From: Marinococcus sp. PL1-022
Lineage (GTDB): Bacteria > Bacillota > Bacilli > Bacillales > Marinococcaceae
Direction of reading: 5' to 3'
Length of the DNA stretch: 64,000 bases
NCBI RefSeq assembly: GCF_033845285.1
Contig: NZ_JAWXCX010000001.1
Location: forward strand, 883,495-947,494
The position numbers and the translations under genes are program-made. Shown one piece after another: positions 3,728-55,326 of this stretch. Position 1 is the stretch's first letter, and the number at the start of each line of letters is the position of its first letter. A model generated the notes under the pieces. It was not told where the DNA came from. It searched no databases and was given only the letters and a program-made list of their open reading frames with translations.

Positions 3728-4911
3728 AGATGGAAGAGGTTCTGCTAGGCGGAGCGGTACGGACGCCAGTCGGCGGCTTTATGGGCAGCTTAAAGGACGT
3801 ACCGGCAGTGGATCTGGGGGCGCTTGTGATTGAAGAAGCGCTTGAACGTGCCGGTGTCCCGAAGGAAGAAGTGGATGAAGTTATTATGGGAAACGTGCTG
3901 CAGGCGGGGCTTGGGCAGAATCCTGCCCGTGTAGCCTCTTTAAAGGCCGGTCTTTCTGAAAACGTACCTGCGATGACCATAAATAAAGTATGCGGCTCCG
4001 GCTTGAAGGCTGTCCACCTGGCGGCTCAGGCCGTACTAACGGGCGATGCGGAGATCGTCGTTGCCGGCGGGATGGAAAACATGAGCCAGGCTCCTTATCT
4101 GCAGATGAACGCTCGCAGCGGCTTTGGCATGGGAGACCAGAAGCTGGTCGACAGCATGCTCCATGACGGACTGATGTGTGCGGTGGAAAACTATCATATG
4201 GGTGTGACAGCTGAAAACATTAACCATGAGTACGGCTTTACACGCGAAGAACAGGATACATTCGCCGCAGCCAGTCAGCAGAAGGCCACGGCAGCACGGG
4301 ATAACGGGGTATTTAAAGAAGAAATCGTGGCTGTGCGCGTGCCTCAGCGAAAGGGAGATGCTCTTGAGGTATCGCAGGACGAACACATCCGAAGTGGCAC
4401 TACGGTGGAAAAGCTCAAAAAATTAAAGCCGGCGTTTCAAAAGGATGGAAGCGTGACCGCAGGCAACGCCTCCGGCATCAATGACGGGGCTGCAGCGGTT
4501 ATTGTCATGAGCGGGAAGAAAGCGAAGGAGCTGGGCATTACAGGTATGGCTCGTATTGCCGGCAACGCGAGTGCTGCCGTGGATCCGAGCGTGATGGGGC
4601 TGGGGCCGGTCCCGGCCATCCGAAAGGCTTTAGATAAAGCTTCTGTCTCGATGGAGGATATCGATCTGATTGAAGCAAACGAAGCGTTCGCCGCTCAGTC
4701 GCTTGCTGTACAGAGAGATTTGAATATTGATTCAGAAAAGCTGAACGTAAACGGGGGGGCAATCGCGTTAGGGCATCCTATCGGAGCAAGCGGCACAAGA
4801 ATTTTTGTGACCCTGCTTCATCAGATGAAGCGCCAGCAGGCAGATGTTGGACTGGCGGCGTTATGCATTGGAGGCGGCCAGGGCGTTGCCACCGTTGTAG
4901 AAAGAATTTAA
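3724..4911 (+). CDS. Acetyl-CoA C-acetyltransferase (thiolase)
   Basis: A 395-aa thiolase that cleaves acetoacetyl-CoA to two acetyl-CoA, or runs in reverse. All catalytic residues are visible: nucleophilic Cys90 in [11 protein letters not shown], His351 in [12 protein letters not shown] and Cys381 in LCIGGGQG; the NEAF motif is near residue 319. Length and motifs match biosynthetic-type thiolases (AtoB/ThlA/PhaA). It is the last gene of scoA-scoB-thiolase, ending in a strong hairpin. Degradative use fits the neighbouring 3-hydroxybutyrate genes; a role in polyhydroxybutyrate turnover is also possible. Confidence 0.94.
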
Positions 4912-52162: not shown

Positions 52163-52648
52163 CTATTTTGCTTCGAGTGCCTGGATGAACGTTTCATCCA
52201 TATCGACAGCAATAAATTGAATTTCTCTTACATTGTGCAGCAGCTCCAGGTAGTAAATTGCGACGGTGTCGGGATCAAGACCACCGGTGGCCGTCCCAAG
52301 TGCCGGAAGGGCGACCCGGTAGATATGATTCTCCTGGCAGTAGCGTATTAACGACTGCAGACAGGAATAAACCACGTCGTAATTCGATTTTTCCTCCGGG
52401 CCCTCCATTGTCACTAAATGAAGGACGGCTTCATACGGAAGGCTGGCCGCCGTGGTCGTGTAAAGCTCTCCTCGCTTCGGTTCGTTCTTTTTGCAGTAGG
52501 CTGCTGCTTCCTGTTCAATAGCTTCTCCCCCGGCTTTTTTGATGGCAGCAGCTACGCCGCCACCCATCGTCCCCTGGCCGTTGGCAGCATTGCAAATATA
52601 ATCGACATTGGTGACAGTGGTAATATCTCCTTGTTTTGCACTAAGCAT
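52163..52648 (-). CDS. Macro-domain protein
   Basis: A 161-aa single macro domain, which binds ADP-ribose or removes it from targets. Ligand-site segments are visible: QGDITTVTNVDYICNAANGQ with the following GTMGGGVAAAIKKAGG (about residues 6-45), and LPALGTATGGLD (about 114-125) for the phosphate loop. Length corresponds to the domain alone. The neighbouring purine-type deaminase is a separate transcript. Substrate unknown. Confidence 0.9.
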   Translation of the reverse strand: MLSAKQGDITTVTNVDYICNAANGQGTMGGGVAAAIKKAGGEAIEQEAAAYCKKNEPKRGELYTTTAASLPYEAVLHLVTMEGPEEKSNYDVVYSCLQSLIRYCQENHIYRVALPALGTATGGLDPDTVAIYYLELLHNVREIQFIAVDMDETFIQALEAK

Positions 52649-52733: not shown

Positions 52734-54086
52734 TTATGCAAAAGAATTAGACATATACCGGGAAGCCCGGTGGAACAACTGCTTTACTTCTTTGTTTGCC
52801 TCGCTGAGCACGTCGTTTTTATTCATGGTCTGCATATTGCGGTCTTCCATGACAATCCGGCCATTCACGATGGTGGTTTCCACCTGATCTTTGGAGGCGG
52901 CGTACACAACACGGGAGTAAGGATCTGCGCCTTCACTCGGATACGTATGAAAATCGAAAAGATTCAGGATGGACAAATCTGCTTTTTTGCCAATTTCAAT
53001 GCTCCCAATTTCCTGGTCAAGGCCGACCGCTTTCGCGCCTTCGATGGTTGCCATGCGAAGAACCTGTCTGGCATTCATGGCTGTCGGGCCATAGGAGGGC
53101 TTATGAATGAGGGCAGCCATCCTCATTTCCTGAAACATGTCGAGTGTGTTGTTGCACGGGGAGCCGTCGGCGCCGAGACTGACATTGTGATGGTGATCCA
53201 GCAGGTCCGGGATCTCTGCGAATCCGGAAGCAAGCTTCATATTGGAGCTTGGGCAATGGCTGATATGAGCGCCCTTTTGTTTAATAATCTGCTTTTCATG
53301 GTCATCGAGCCAGACGCAGTGGGCGAGGATAAGGCGCGGGTGCACGAGGCCAAGATGATCCAGGTACGTTACGTTTCGCATGCCTGTATCAGCTTCAACA
53401 ATTTCTATTTCTCCCCGGCTCTCCGAAGCGTGGGTGTGCACGTACGCCCCGTAATGACTGGAGAGGCGGGAAACTTCGCGCAGCAGCGGTTCAGAGCAGG
53501 AGACAACAAACCGGGGGGAAAACGCGTAGCGTATTCTACCATTATCCCGGCCGTTCCATTTTTCATACAAATCGGCGCTTTCCTGGATGGACTGGTCCGT
53601 GGTTTCAAGCAGGGGGGCGGGAAGTTCATCCCCTTTATCCATCATAACTTTGCCGGATAAAGCCCGGATGCCGGAAGCTTCTATGGCTTCGAAGGCAGCG
53701 TTTGTATGGTGGACTGTTTCCATGTCGACGATCGTGGTTGTGCCGCTCCGGATTAACTCGCCGATGCCGAGCATTGCTGAGGCGTAGATAGAATCAGGAG
53801 TGTGGGCAGCTTCCATCGGCCATATGCGTTCCTTCAGCCAATCCATCAGTTCAAGATCATCCGCCTGACTGCGAAACAGCGCCTGGCACAGGTGAATATG
53901 GGTATGGATAAAACCGGGCAGCACGGTTCGTCCCTGCGCTTCAATCACTTTTTCACCCGCATGGGGAGTTAAAGAGGGACGGATTTCTTTAATGTATTCA
54001 TTCTCAATTCGTATGTCACCATACACAATGTCATTGTTTTCGTTCATCGTCATGATTTCTGCCTGCCGTATTAAAATTGATGTCAT
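52734..54086 (-). CDS. Amidohydrolase, probable purine/nucleoside deaminase (guanine-type riboswitch controlled)
   Basis: A 450-aa metal-dependent amidohydrolase of the TrzN/AtzB/MtaD/SsnA group. The metal site has HxH in LPGFIHTHIHLCQALFR (about residues 55-71), the later histidines in VHTHASE and LAHCVWL, and the aspartate in SLGADGSPCNN. These enzymes deaminate 5-methylthioadenosine/S-adenosylhomocysteine, guanine, 8-oxoguanine or related heterocycles. A guanine-type riboswitch immediately upstream points to a purine substrate. Start 54086 has AAGGAGTG. Assignment to guanine itself is inference. Confidence 0.85.
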   Translation of the reverse strand: MTSILIRQAEIMTMNENNDIVYGDIRIENEYIKEIRPSLTPHAGEKVIEAQGRTVLPGFIHTHIHLCQALFRSQADDLELMDWLKERIWPMEAAHTPDSIYASAMLGIGELIRSGTTTIVDMETVHHTNAAFEAIEASGIRALSGKVMMDKGDELPAPLLETTDQSIQESADLYEKWNGRDNGRIRYAFSPRFVVSCSEPLLREVSRLSSHYGAYVHTHASESRGEIEIVEADTGMRNVTYLDHLGLVHPRLILAHCVWLDDHEKQIIKQKGAHISHCPSSNMKLASGFAEIPDLLDHHHNVSLGADGSPCNNTLDMFQEMRMAALIHKPSYGPTAMNARQVLRMATIEGAKAVGLDQEIGSIEIGKKADLSILNLFDFHTYPSEGADPYSRVVYAASKDQVETTIVNGRIVMEDRNMQTMNKNDVLSEANKEVKQLFHRASRYMSNSFA

Positions 54087-54109
54087 TGTAAACACTCCTT
54101 TGTATGCAT

Positions 54110-54205
54110 AAAAAAACGAAGAACGCCCGCAAAAGGCGTTCTTCGTAGTTGGAAATTACGGTTCCCAGTAGAAACGTTCAACCCAATTGTTGAATATATA
54201 CGAAG
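54110..54205 (-). promoter_or_regulatory. Guanine-type purine riboswitch with overlapping terminator
   Basis: Read on the minus strand. Aptamer 54205-54141: P1 CTTCGTA/TACGAAG, P2 TTCAA/TTGAA with a loop AATTGGG, J2/3 GTTTCTACT, P3 GGGAA/TTTCC with loop CCGTAA, and J3/1 AACTA. The J2/3 and L3 sequences equal those of the xpt purine aptamer, and the C in AACTACG corresponds to C74, which specifies guanine or hypoxanthine. The terminator (54145-54110) has arms CGAAGAACGCC and GGGCGTTCTTCG, then seven T. Its 5' arm reuses CGAAG of P1, so ligand-stabilised P1 should weaken the terminator. Confidence 0.93.
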
Positions 54206-54436
54206 GGTAAGTGGTAATACCTGCATCGTACCGGGGAATCTGAAAAACTTCAATGGAATTGGGAGATAATGTGACAAAAGATTTACTGGACGGTATACGC
54301 TTGTCCTTCTAGTTTTTATTCCTGTTTATTCTAAAAGGAAACAGAATAATTTTCAGAAAATGTACATCACAAAGAGTGAAGAACTGAAGCAATGGGTATA
54401 GGAAAGTAACAATACTATTCCAGAGGAGAGCAAATT

Positions 54437-55326
54437 ATGGAGAAAACAGCCATTATTACCGGAGCAAATACCGGAATGGGATTCGAAACAGCGAAACAGC
54501 TTGCCGTGAAAGGATTCAATATCATTATGGCCGTCCGGGACGAAAAGCGCGGGGGGAAGCCATGAGGAGGATAAAGGCCAGTACCGGCGCTTCACGTGTT
54601 CGGGTGATGCGCTGCGATCTTTCCTCTCTTCAGGATATACATACCTTTGTGCGTCAGCTCGAACAGATCGTTCCCTGCGTGGACGTGCTGGTCAACAATG
54701 CCGGCGTTGTATCACTGAAAAGAGAGCTTACCGAAGACGGTTTTGAAAGTATGATCGGTGTGAATCATCTGGGGCACTTTGCCCTGACGCTACAGCTTCT
54801 TCCTCTTCTTGAATGTTCTGCAGAAGAGGCACGTATCGTGAACGTTTCGTCAGGAGCCCACAAATATGGCAGTATTCATTTTCCGGACCCGCATTTAACC
54901 AGGGGATATGGCACGTGGAAAGGGTACGCCCAGTCAAAGCTGGCGAACGTTTTATTTACATATGCCCTTGCTTCCCGTCTCGAAGGGACAAATATTCGTG
55001 TTAATGCCCTGCATCCCGGCGGGGTAAGTACTATGCTTGGCGTGGACCGGTCTACCGGGTTCGGGCGCCGTATCCACCAGACTATCCGCCCAATGCTGCG
55101 CACAGCTGCGGAAGGGGCGGAAACATCGGTGTACCTTGCCGCTTCCCCTGAAGTAAACGGTGTGCATGGCAGGTACTTTATTGATTCTTTTGAAGAAAAC
55201 ACCGCCCCACATGCTTACGATAAGGAGCTCCAGGAAAAGGTATGGGAATGGAGCATGAACCAGACGAATGTTGAACGACTCCTGGAGACAGAGTGGATCG
55301 ATAGGTTAAAACACGAAAATCAATAA
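54437..55326 (+). pseudogene. Short-chain dehydrogenase gene split by a frameshift in a G run
   Basis: The first part (ATG 54437, GCAAATT upstream, 42 codons) encodes MEKTAIITGANTGMGFETAK and stops at 54563 just after a run of six G (54551-54556). The remainder in the next frame runs to 55326 with CDLSSLQDIHTFV, VLVNNAGV, GVNHLGHFALTL, YAQSKLANVLFTYALA and LHPGGVSTMLG, an intact SDR of the retinol dehydrogenase-like type. One more G restores a single protein of about 296 aa. ATG 54562 overlaps the stop (ATGA), so a two-piece product is possible. True mutation or sequencing error cannot be told apart here. Confidence 0.8.

Follow-up and report, generated by a model that had tools for sequence, protein, structure and literature searches.

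The minus strand of the window, as we call the whole 64,000-nucleotide stretch of the Marinococcus sp. PL1-022 genome analyzed here, carries a purine riboswitch aptamer followed by an intrinsic terminator and the gene for an amidohydrolase-superfamily deaminase (Table 1). A preliminary description, made from the letters alone, had proposed a purine riboswitch core with C at the specificity position, and a covariance-model search with the Rfam purine family agrees, placing the match above the gathering score with C74 in a guanine-type pocket. Guanine-I riboswitches serve as a model in studies of how riboswitches fold; the window has the features of their pocket: U22, U47, U51, and C74, an 8-nt J2/3, and a 2-nt J3/1. 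J1/2 reads UAU and J3/1 reads AC; the loop-loop contact between P2 and P3, for which both hairpins carry the bases, is a known feature of the purine riboswitch family. Membership in the 2'-dG, xanthine-II, and guanine-II classes was ruled out by the pocket and the junction lengths, J2/3 (GUUUCUAC) being without insertion. The genome has four RF00167 riboswitches. Ahead of the one described here, on the plus strand, a short-chain dehydrogenase gene (54437-55326) is apparently broken: from the ATG at 54437 the frame reaches a stop at 54563, immediately past six consecutive G, the remainder being open in another frame (54562-55326); this appears to be gene decay or a sequencing slip.

Table 1. 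Coordinates of the leader and deaminase features in the window
Feature	Position	Strand	Basis
Putative promoter-like pair TTGAAG (54253-54248) / 17 nt / TACGAT (54230-54225)	54225..54253	-	8/12 consensus matches by eye
RF00167 purine riboswitch aptamer match	54126..54223	-	Rfam cmscan, 60.8 bits (gathering score 37), E 4.6e-8
P1 5' strand CUUCGUA	54199..54205	-	Aptamer match, fold, sequence reading
P2 hairpin with GG for loop-loop contact	54176..54195	-	Aptamer match, fold
J2/3 GUUUCUAC, length and sequence of guanine-I (U47, U51)	54168..54175	-	
P3 hairpin with CC for loop-loop contact	54150..54167	-	Aptamer match, fold
J3/1: A73 (54149) and C74 (54148), C74 the specificity base	54148..54149	-	
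P1 3' strand UACGAAG, common to P1 and terminator 5' arm	54141..54147	-	
Intrinsic terminator: 5' arm 54146-54135, loop, 3' arm 54127-54116, U7 54116-54110	54110..54146	-	
Shine-Dalgarno-like AAAGGAG, 8 bases ahead of ATG	54095..54101	-	Sequence reading
Amidohydrolase-superfamily deaminase, 450 aa, ATG at 54086	52734..54086	-	NF005557 695.2 bits (cut-off 522); PF01979; motifs

The hexamers and spacing of the promoter-like pair are also kept in three related loci (L005 to L007); the promoter scan does not list the pair because its consensus matches put it below the scan's cut-off. The terminator hairpin (54146-54116) has 13 pairs, 7 of them G-C, followed by U7. CGAAG (54145-54141) had been assigned to both the 3' strand of P1 and the 5' arm of the terminator, and the minus strand reads the same way, the whole overlap being 54146-54141. 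The 3' arm of the terminator, CUUCGU, repeats six bases of the P1 5' strand, so P1 and the terminator compete for the same six bases, and because the P1 3' strand is the start of the terminator 5' arm the two are mutually exclusive, as in the ON layout of pbuE. We also recovered the absence of a separate antiterminator between aptamer and terminator: the best partner of the terminator 5' arm within the aptamer is the P1 5' strand, with six pairs, and a second stretch that could form seven pairs, partly G-U, is located ahead of where transcription probably starts, next to the promoter-like -35 hexamer. The expression platform thus has the pbuE-type layout. Terminator-like matches as such (3 found, 2.4 expected) are within chance, so the evidence is the overlap with P1 and its conservation.

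Folding and proposed switching

When the leader was folded as a growing chain, P1 had a probability of 0.98 until the terminator 3' arm emerged, 0.48 at length 95, and 0.00 at length 97. The ligand-free fold reaches -30.6 kcal/mol with the terminator and -24.3 kcal/mol with P1 forced; because the ligand-free balance favors the terminator over P1 by 6.3 kcal/mol, the switch presumably must act during transcription and not at equilibrium. Even with P1 forced, seven pairs of the upper terminator fold, no longer adjacent to the U tract, in the manner of a P4-like toehold. The observed architecture, comprising the aptamer, the shared strand, and mutual exclusion in the fold model, is confirmed.

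In the mechanism that we propose, P2, P3, and P1 would fold as RNA polymerase leaves the aptamer. Bound guanine, or a close 6-oxopurine, would lock P1, so that no more of the terminator than its upper part, away from the U tract, could form and transcription would continue; with no ligand, the terminator 3' arm would displace P1 and transcription would stop. The antiterminator would then be P1 itself. The adenine riboswitch of pbuE has U at the specificity position, where the window has C74. According to PMC7707468, this ON switch of Bacillus subtilis likewise has a terminator that invades P1 by strand exchange, starting from a P4 toehold that exists in both states, and is blocked by ligand. 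The guanine-I riboswitch of xpt-pbuX, an OFF switch, has the same pocket, J2/3, and J3/1 as the window, but its platform is the opposite one, with a separate antiterminator (PMC10907184).

The deaminase and its probable substrate

The protein encoded downstream, correctly anticipated as a purine-type deaminase, has active-site residues like those of guanine deaminases. The NCBIfam model whose cut-off it passes is named 5'-deoxyadenosine deaminase, a name that does not by itself imply a tested substrate for the group to which the window protein belongs. Its scores against the guanine deaminase model TIGR02967 (261.5 bits, cut-off 375.4) and the 8-oxoguanine deaminase model NF006055 (294.7 bits, cut-off 532) fall below the cut-offs. 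In a full-length phmmer search of the PDB, the MTA/SAH deaminase 4f0r (240 bits) ranks above the guanine deaminases 2uz9 (167) and 6ohb (155), whereas in a search with the 120-aa substrate segment around the PRF motif guanine deaminases come out best (6ohb at 7.1e-14), and proteins called guanine or cytosine/guanine deaminase make up five of the top six PDB matches. The window enzyme thus resembles Escherichia coli GuaD (6OHB) and human GDA (2UZ9) in the Gln after beta-strand 1 and in the aligned GKVxMD and PRF segments, but differs from them in being nearer overall to 4f0r and below the TIGR02967 cut-off.

The arginine of PRF, which presumably binds guanine, is present in 81/81 proteins, as are GKVMMD and the Gln after beta-strand 1 (HIHLCQ or HVHLCQ). 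That Gln holds the exocyclic oxygen of guanine and marks the GuaD cluster, according to PMC12828455. Since the cluster includes 8-oxoguanine deaminase, the Gln alone does not name guanine. Met and His take the places of the GuaD Gln and Arg in 4f0r and also in a second amidohydrolase of the window's genome, L369, which scores 349.8 bits against the MTA/SAH model, below the cut-off of 779. On these residues, guanine seems a more fitting substrate for the window enzyme than 8-oxoguanine or methylthioadenosine, and the database name 5'-deoxyadenosine deaminase is probably wrong for it. The same genome encodes a 139-aa protein with a cytidine-deaminase fold (L364, 1381-1800, minus strand) that falls below the TadA cut-off and could be a second guanine deaminase of Marinococcus.

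Paenibacillus provides a natural control. The 8-oxoguanine deaminase PRK08203 stands behind its own RF00167 riboswitch in four of the eight Paenibacillus genomes searched; these proteins score 585-600 bits against NF006055 and keep the Gln but have PCS in place of PRF. The active-site motifs of the two enzymes are HHHLYQ and PCSP for PRK08203 versus HIHLCQ and PRFV for the window type. In the four leaders linked to PRK08203, J2/3 is shortened to GCUCUAC and the layout is ON-type by eye; the same four genomes also carry the window-type enzyme behind an unaltered pocket, with GUCUCUAC in J2/3. We take the altered leaders to be the published 8-oxoguanine riboswitch, reportedly a guanine-family variant (PNAS 2023) that acts as an ON switch before 8-oxoguanine deaminase in Paenibacillaceae. 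That riboswitch is announced in PMC9295807 and cited in PMC11625349. Because pocket and enzyme change together in Paenibacillus, we argue that the unaltered pocket reads guanine.

Recurrence and covariation of the leader

We examined the best 80 of 299 confirmed loci by enzyme similarity (63-99% identity to the window's enzyme), the closest of which, at 99%, is L005 from an uncultured Marinococcus sp. With a purine model built for this analysis, whose training included ten of these leaders, matches were found at 73 of these best 80 of 299 loci, 72 of them upstream of the gene. Rfam confirmed all seven matches that were rechecked (six upstream and the one downstream) and returned no purine riboswitch at the seven loci without a model match. 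The downstream case is L055, where the purine riboswitch (4417-4514) follows the deaminase gene.

The ON layout was called for 70 of the 73 matches; the others are L023, one base short with four of five P1 bases, and L067 and L082, which have no terminator by script. In both of these the aptamer is present (L067, 2828-2927; L082, 2872-2974), and base pairing between a pyrimidine stretch and the Shine-Dalgarno region is conceivable in L082, where control may thus be translational. U22, U47, U51, and C74 occur in 73/73 relatives; the core finder admits only U at 22 and 51, yet it found the core in all 73. With the sequence behind P1 of these relatives shuffled, 48 of 700 trials came out as ON, versus 67 of the 70 distinct real leaders.

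For covariation, 29 leaders were picked for diversity from the 73 and the out-of-register L005, L007, and L048 set aside, leaving 26, with the structure taken from leader L054. The terminator scored 0.328, versus 0.228 for shuffles that ignore common descent (0 of 500 reach it) and at most 0.110 when slid. Seven terminator pairs are changed on both sides, a count reached by 8 of 500 shuffles and the weakest of the covariation measures; the count on all 29 leaders, including the three out of register, agrees with this outcome. Position 73 is paired in the terminator in 26/26 leaders (19 G-C, 5 A-U, 2 G-U), and so is C74; therefore the unliganded terminator includes J3/1 and the specificity base in most relatives. 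The pbuE terminator runs through J3/1 into P3, whereas that of Marinococcus ends at A76, short of J3/1.

The enzyme also occurs without the riboswitch. Of 299 Bacilli genomes drawn evenly, 43 had the enzyme at 1e-100 or better, and among 30 loci taken from these 43 and followed for 1500 bases upstream, a riboswitch was present at 10 and absent at 20; nine of the ten were called ON, and the tenth (L279) is ON by eye. The enzymes without a riboswitch share the active-site motifs (27/27 aligned), and on a tree from which one of the 28 riboswitch-less proteins was left out as too short, riboswitch presence changes at least 8 times. Directly behind the window's deaminase lies a macro-domain gene (52163-52648, minus strand), an arrangement found only in three Marinococcus loci among the 80. 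Gene neighborhood gives no conserved operon from which to read the function, since this gene occurs in 3/80 loci only and the first downstream genes form small groups; we therefore take the enzyme as stand-alone.

Purine riboswitches by gene across Bacilli

We classified 232 purine riboswitches: 102 from 29 genomes of the family, 100 from the even draw (all but the window genome's own four), and 30 of the 49 from eight Paenibacillus genomes. The classifier, which requires a regular P1 and a U tract, returned 35 as C74 ON, 137 as C74 OFF, 37 as C74 undecided, and 10 as U74 ON, with no core found in 13. Genes were grouped as blastp clusters and the representatives named. ON calls were made for 10 of 11 deaminases of the window type, a group of five near-identical Marinococcus copies, one locus from the even draw, and five loci from Paenibacillus genomes chosen for having the gene. 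All five leaders of a xanthine-dehydrogenase-like iron-sulfur subunit (L159, L162, L165, L147, and L355; best match of the representative pucE, below its cut-off) were C74 ON, as were five of seven before an FAD-dependent protein (L157, L205, L220, L350, and L353). PF21688 was found in the two FAD-dependent proteins that were scanned, and no NCBIfam model was matched at 1e-30; this protein may take part in the breakdown of purines. ON calls were made for 10 of 65 permeases, 1 of 57 purE, 1 of 30 xpt, and 3 of 27 guaA leaders.

For the deaminase, the xanthine-dehydrogenase-like subunit, and the FAD-dependent protein together, 20 of 23 leaders were C74 ON, versus 5 of 114 for purE, xpt, and guaA (Fisher test; kinship ignored); those five are long hairpins, perhaps chance, yet counted as ON. 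L221, which has a very long loop, was called OFF even though its terminator and P1 overlap. Among leaders of the family's genomes without such an overlap, 51 of 60 have a terminator that starts 16 to 82 nt past C74, versus 2 nt in the window; in the remaining nine, irregular calls put the start between -22 and +11 relative to C74. In the window's own genome, the leaders before purE and guaA are OFF. The pbuE-like ON architecture first proposed from the window thus recurs in other genera, covaries, and is the opposite of the layout before biosynthetic genes.

That guanine riboswitches normally repress, as the preliminary description put it, stands for guanine-I, described as OFF in PMC9295807, but not for the wider family, in which ON switches have been described or predicted. 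In the same source, guanine-II is predicted to be ON before phosphoribosyltransferase genes, and xanthine-II and 2'-dG-III are consistent with ON, so ON use of the purine aptamer family is not new. Like the window, guanine-II of Paenibacillus is a predicted guanine ON switch, but it has an insertion in J2-3 and most of the xanthine-II changes (PMC9295807), whereas the window has no insertion and other genes. In a literature search made mostly without full texts, we met no case of an unaltered guanine-I pocket serving in an ON switch, for breakdown of guanine or otherwise, and no guanine riboswitch before a guanine deaminase. The window's switch is well explained as a real and recurrent device with known parts in a new combination. 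We think it fairly probable that it is a transcriptional ON riboswitch with a guanine-I pocket that senses guanine and induces a stand-alone guanine deaminase; the ligand, the direction in the cell, and the substrate we infer from sequence and fold.

The same ON device could have xanthine or hypoxanthine as its working ligand, as a sensor of 6-oxopurines through which breakdown products or salvage substrates induce the gene. Guanine-I aptamers discriminate only about 10-fold against these two bases (PMC9295807), and the same ON type precedes all of the xanthine-dehydrogenase-like subunit genes; we nevertheless consider this unlikely, given the invariant guanine-I pocket bases, junctions J2/3 and J3/1 without insertion, unlike the xanthine-II description in that source, and a controlled enzyme that looks like a guanine deaminase. 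It is likewise doubtful that guanine is sensed as a proxy for an enzyme acting on 5'-deoxyadenosine, methylthioadenosine, 8-oxoguanine, or N2-alkylguanine. The NF005557 name and score and the best full-length PDB match point that way, and in PMC13054789 AtzB-cluster relatives prefer N2,N2-dimethylguanine over guanine, but the window protein has the GuaD Gln and Arg where 4f0r has Met and His, another amidohydrolase of the genome (L369) has Met and His there, and a separate PRK08203 enzyme coexists in four of the eight Paenibacillus genomes.

A switch that is OFF or constitutive, either because the terminator wins whatever the ligand or because another structure makes it repress, would agree with the description of guanine-I as OFF (PMC9295807) and with the greater stability of the terminator than of P1. 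We judge it quite improbable, because P1 is the best partner of the terminator 5' arm within the aptamer, the terminator starts far closer to C74 than in most non-overlapping leaders, and it covaries with J3/1. An 8-oxoguanine riboswitch would be alike in aptamer kind, ON layout, and downstream deaminase, and is scarcely credible here: the leaders taken for that class have an altered J2/3 and precede the PRK08203 family with its different active site, whereas J2/3 in the window and in window-type leaders is canonical and NF006055 scores below its cut-off.

Returning to a guanine-sensing ON switch before a guanine deaminase, we give about an even chance to the broader reading that Bacilli split their guanine-I riboswitches, OFF devices serving purine making and salvage and ON devices forming a guanine-inducible purine-breakdown regulon of guanine deaminase, xanthine dehydrogenase, some permeases, and the uncharacterized FAD protein, beside the ON switches of adenine and 8-oxoguanine deaminase. 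If the same pocket drives ON devices before catabolic genes, the expression platform would by itself determine direction, and nature would supply matched pairs for study, with one pocket and opposite outputs in one genome. A regulator of guanine breakdown would also be identified in bacteria with the window-type enzyme, and the name that this enzyme has in the database, probably wrong, would be corrected. Since adenine deaminase stands behind U74 ON leaders and 8-oxoguanine deaminase behind altered ON leaders, the data suggest a series in Bacilli, above all in Paenibacillus, of deaminases that would each be induced by their own base.

Leaders of adenine deaminase genes are of two kinds, U74 ON in three (L141, L211, and L333) versus C74 OFF in four (among them L086, L092, and L122). 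Of eight leaders before an MFS transporter, seven are U74 ON and one reads C74 and is undecided. A further leader of the window's genome (L004, G000:C1:2419696-2419793, with copies L178-L181) looks ON-type, with a mismatch in P1 and a terminator beginning at base 78, and precedes a PF00860 permease; this leader and its four Marinococcus copies were left undecided by the classifier for an irregular P1. In a separate fold of L004, terminator and P1 exclude each other. G at position 73 occurs in 22 of 35 C74 ON leaders versus 11 of 137 C74 OFF leaders; this G pairs in the terminator and could, in addition, affect the pocket.
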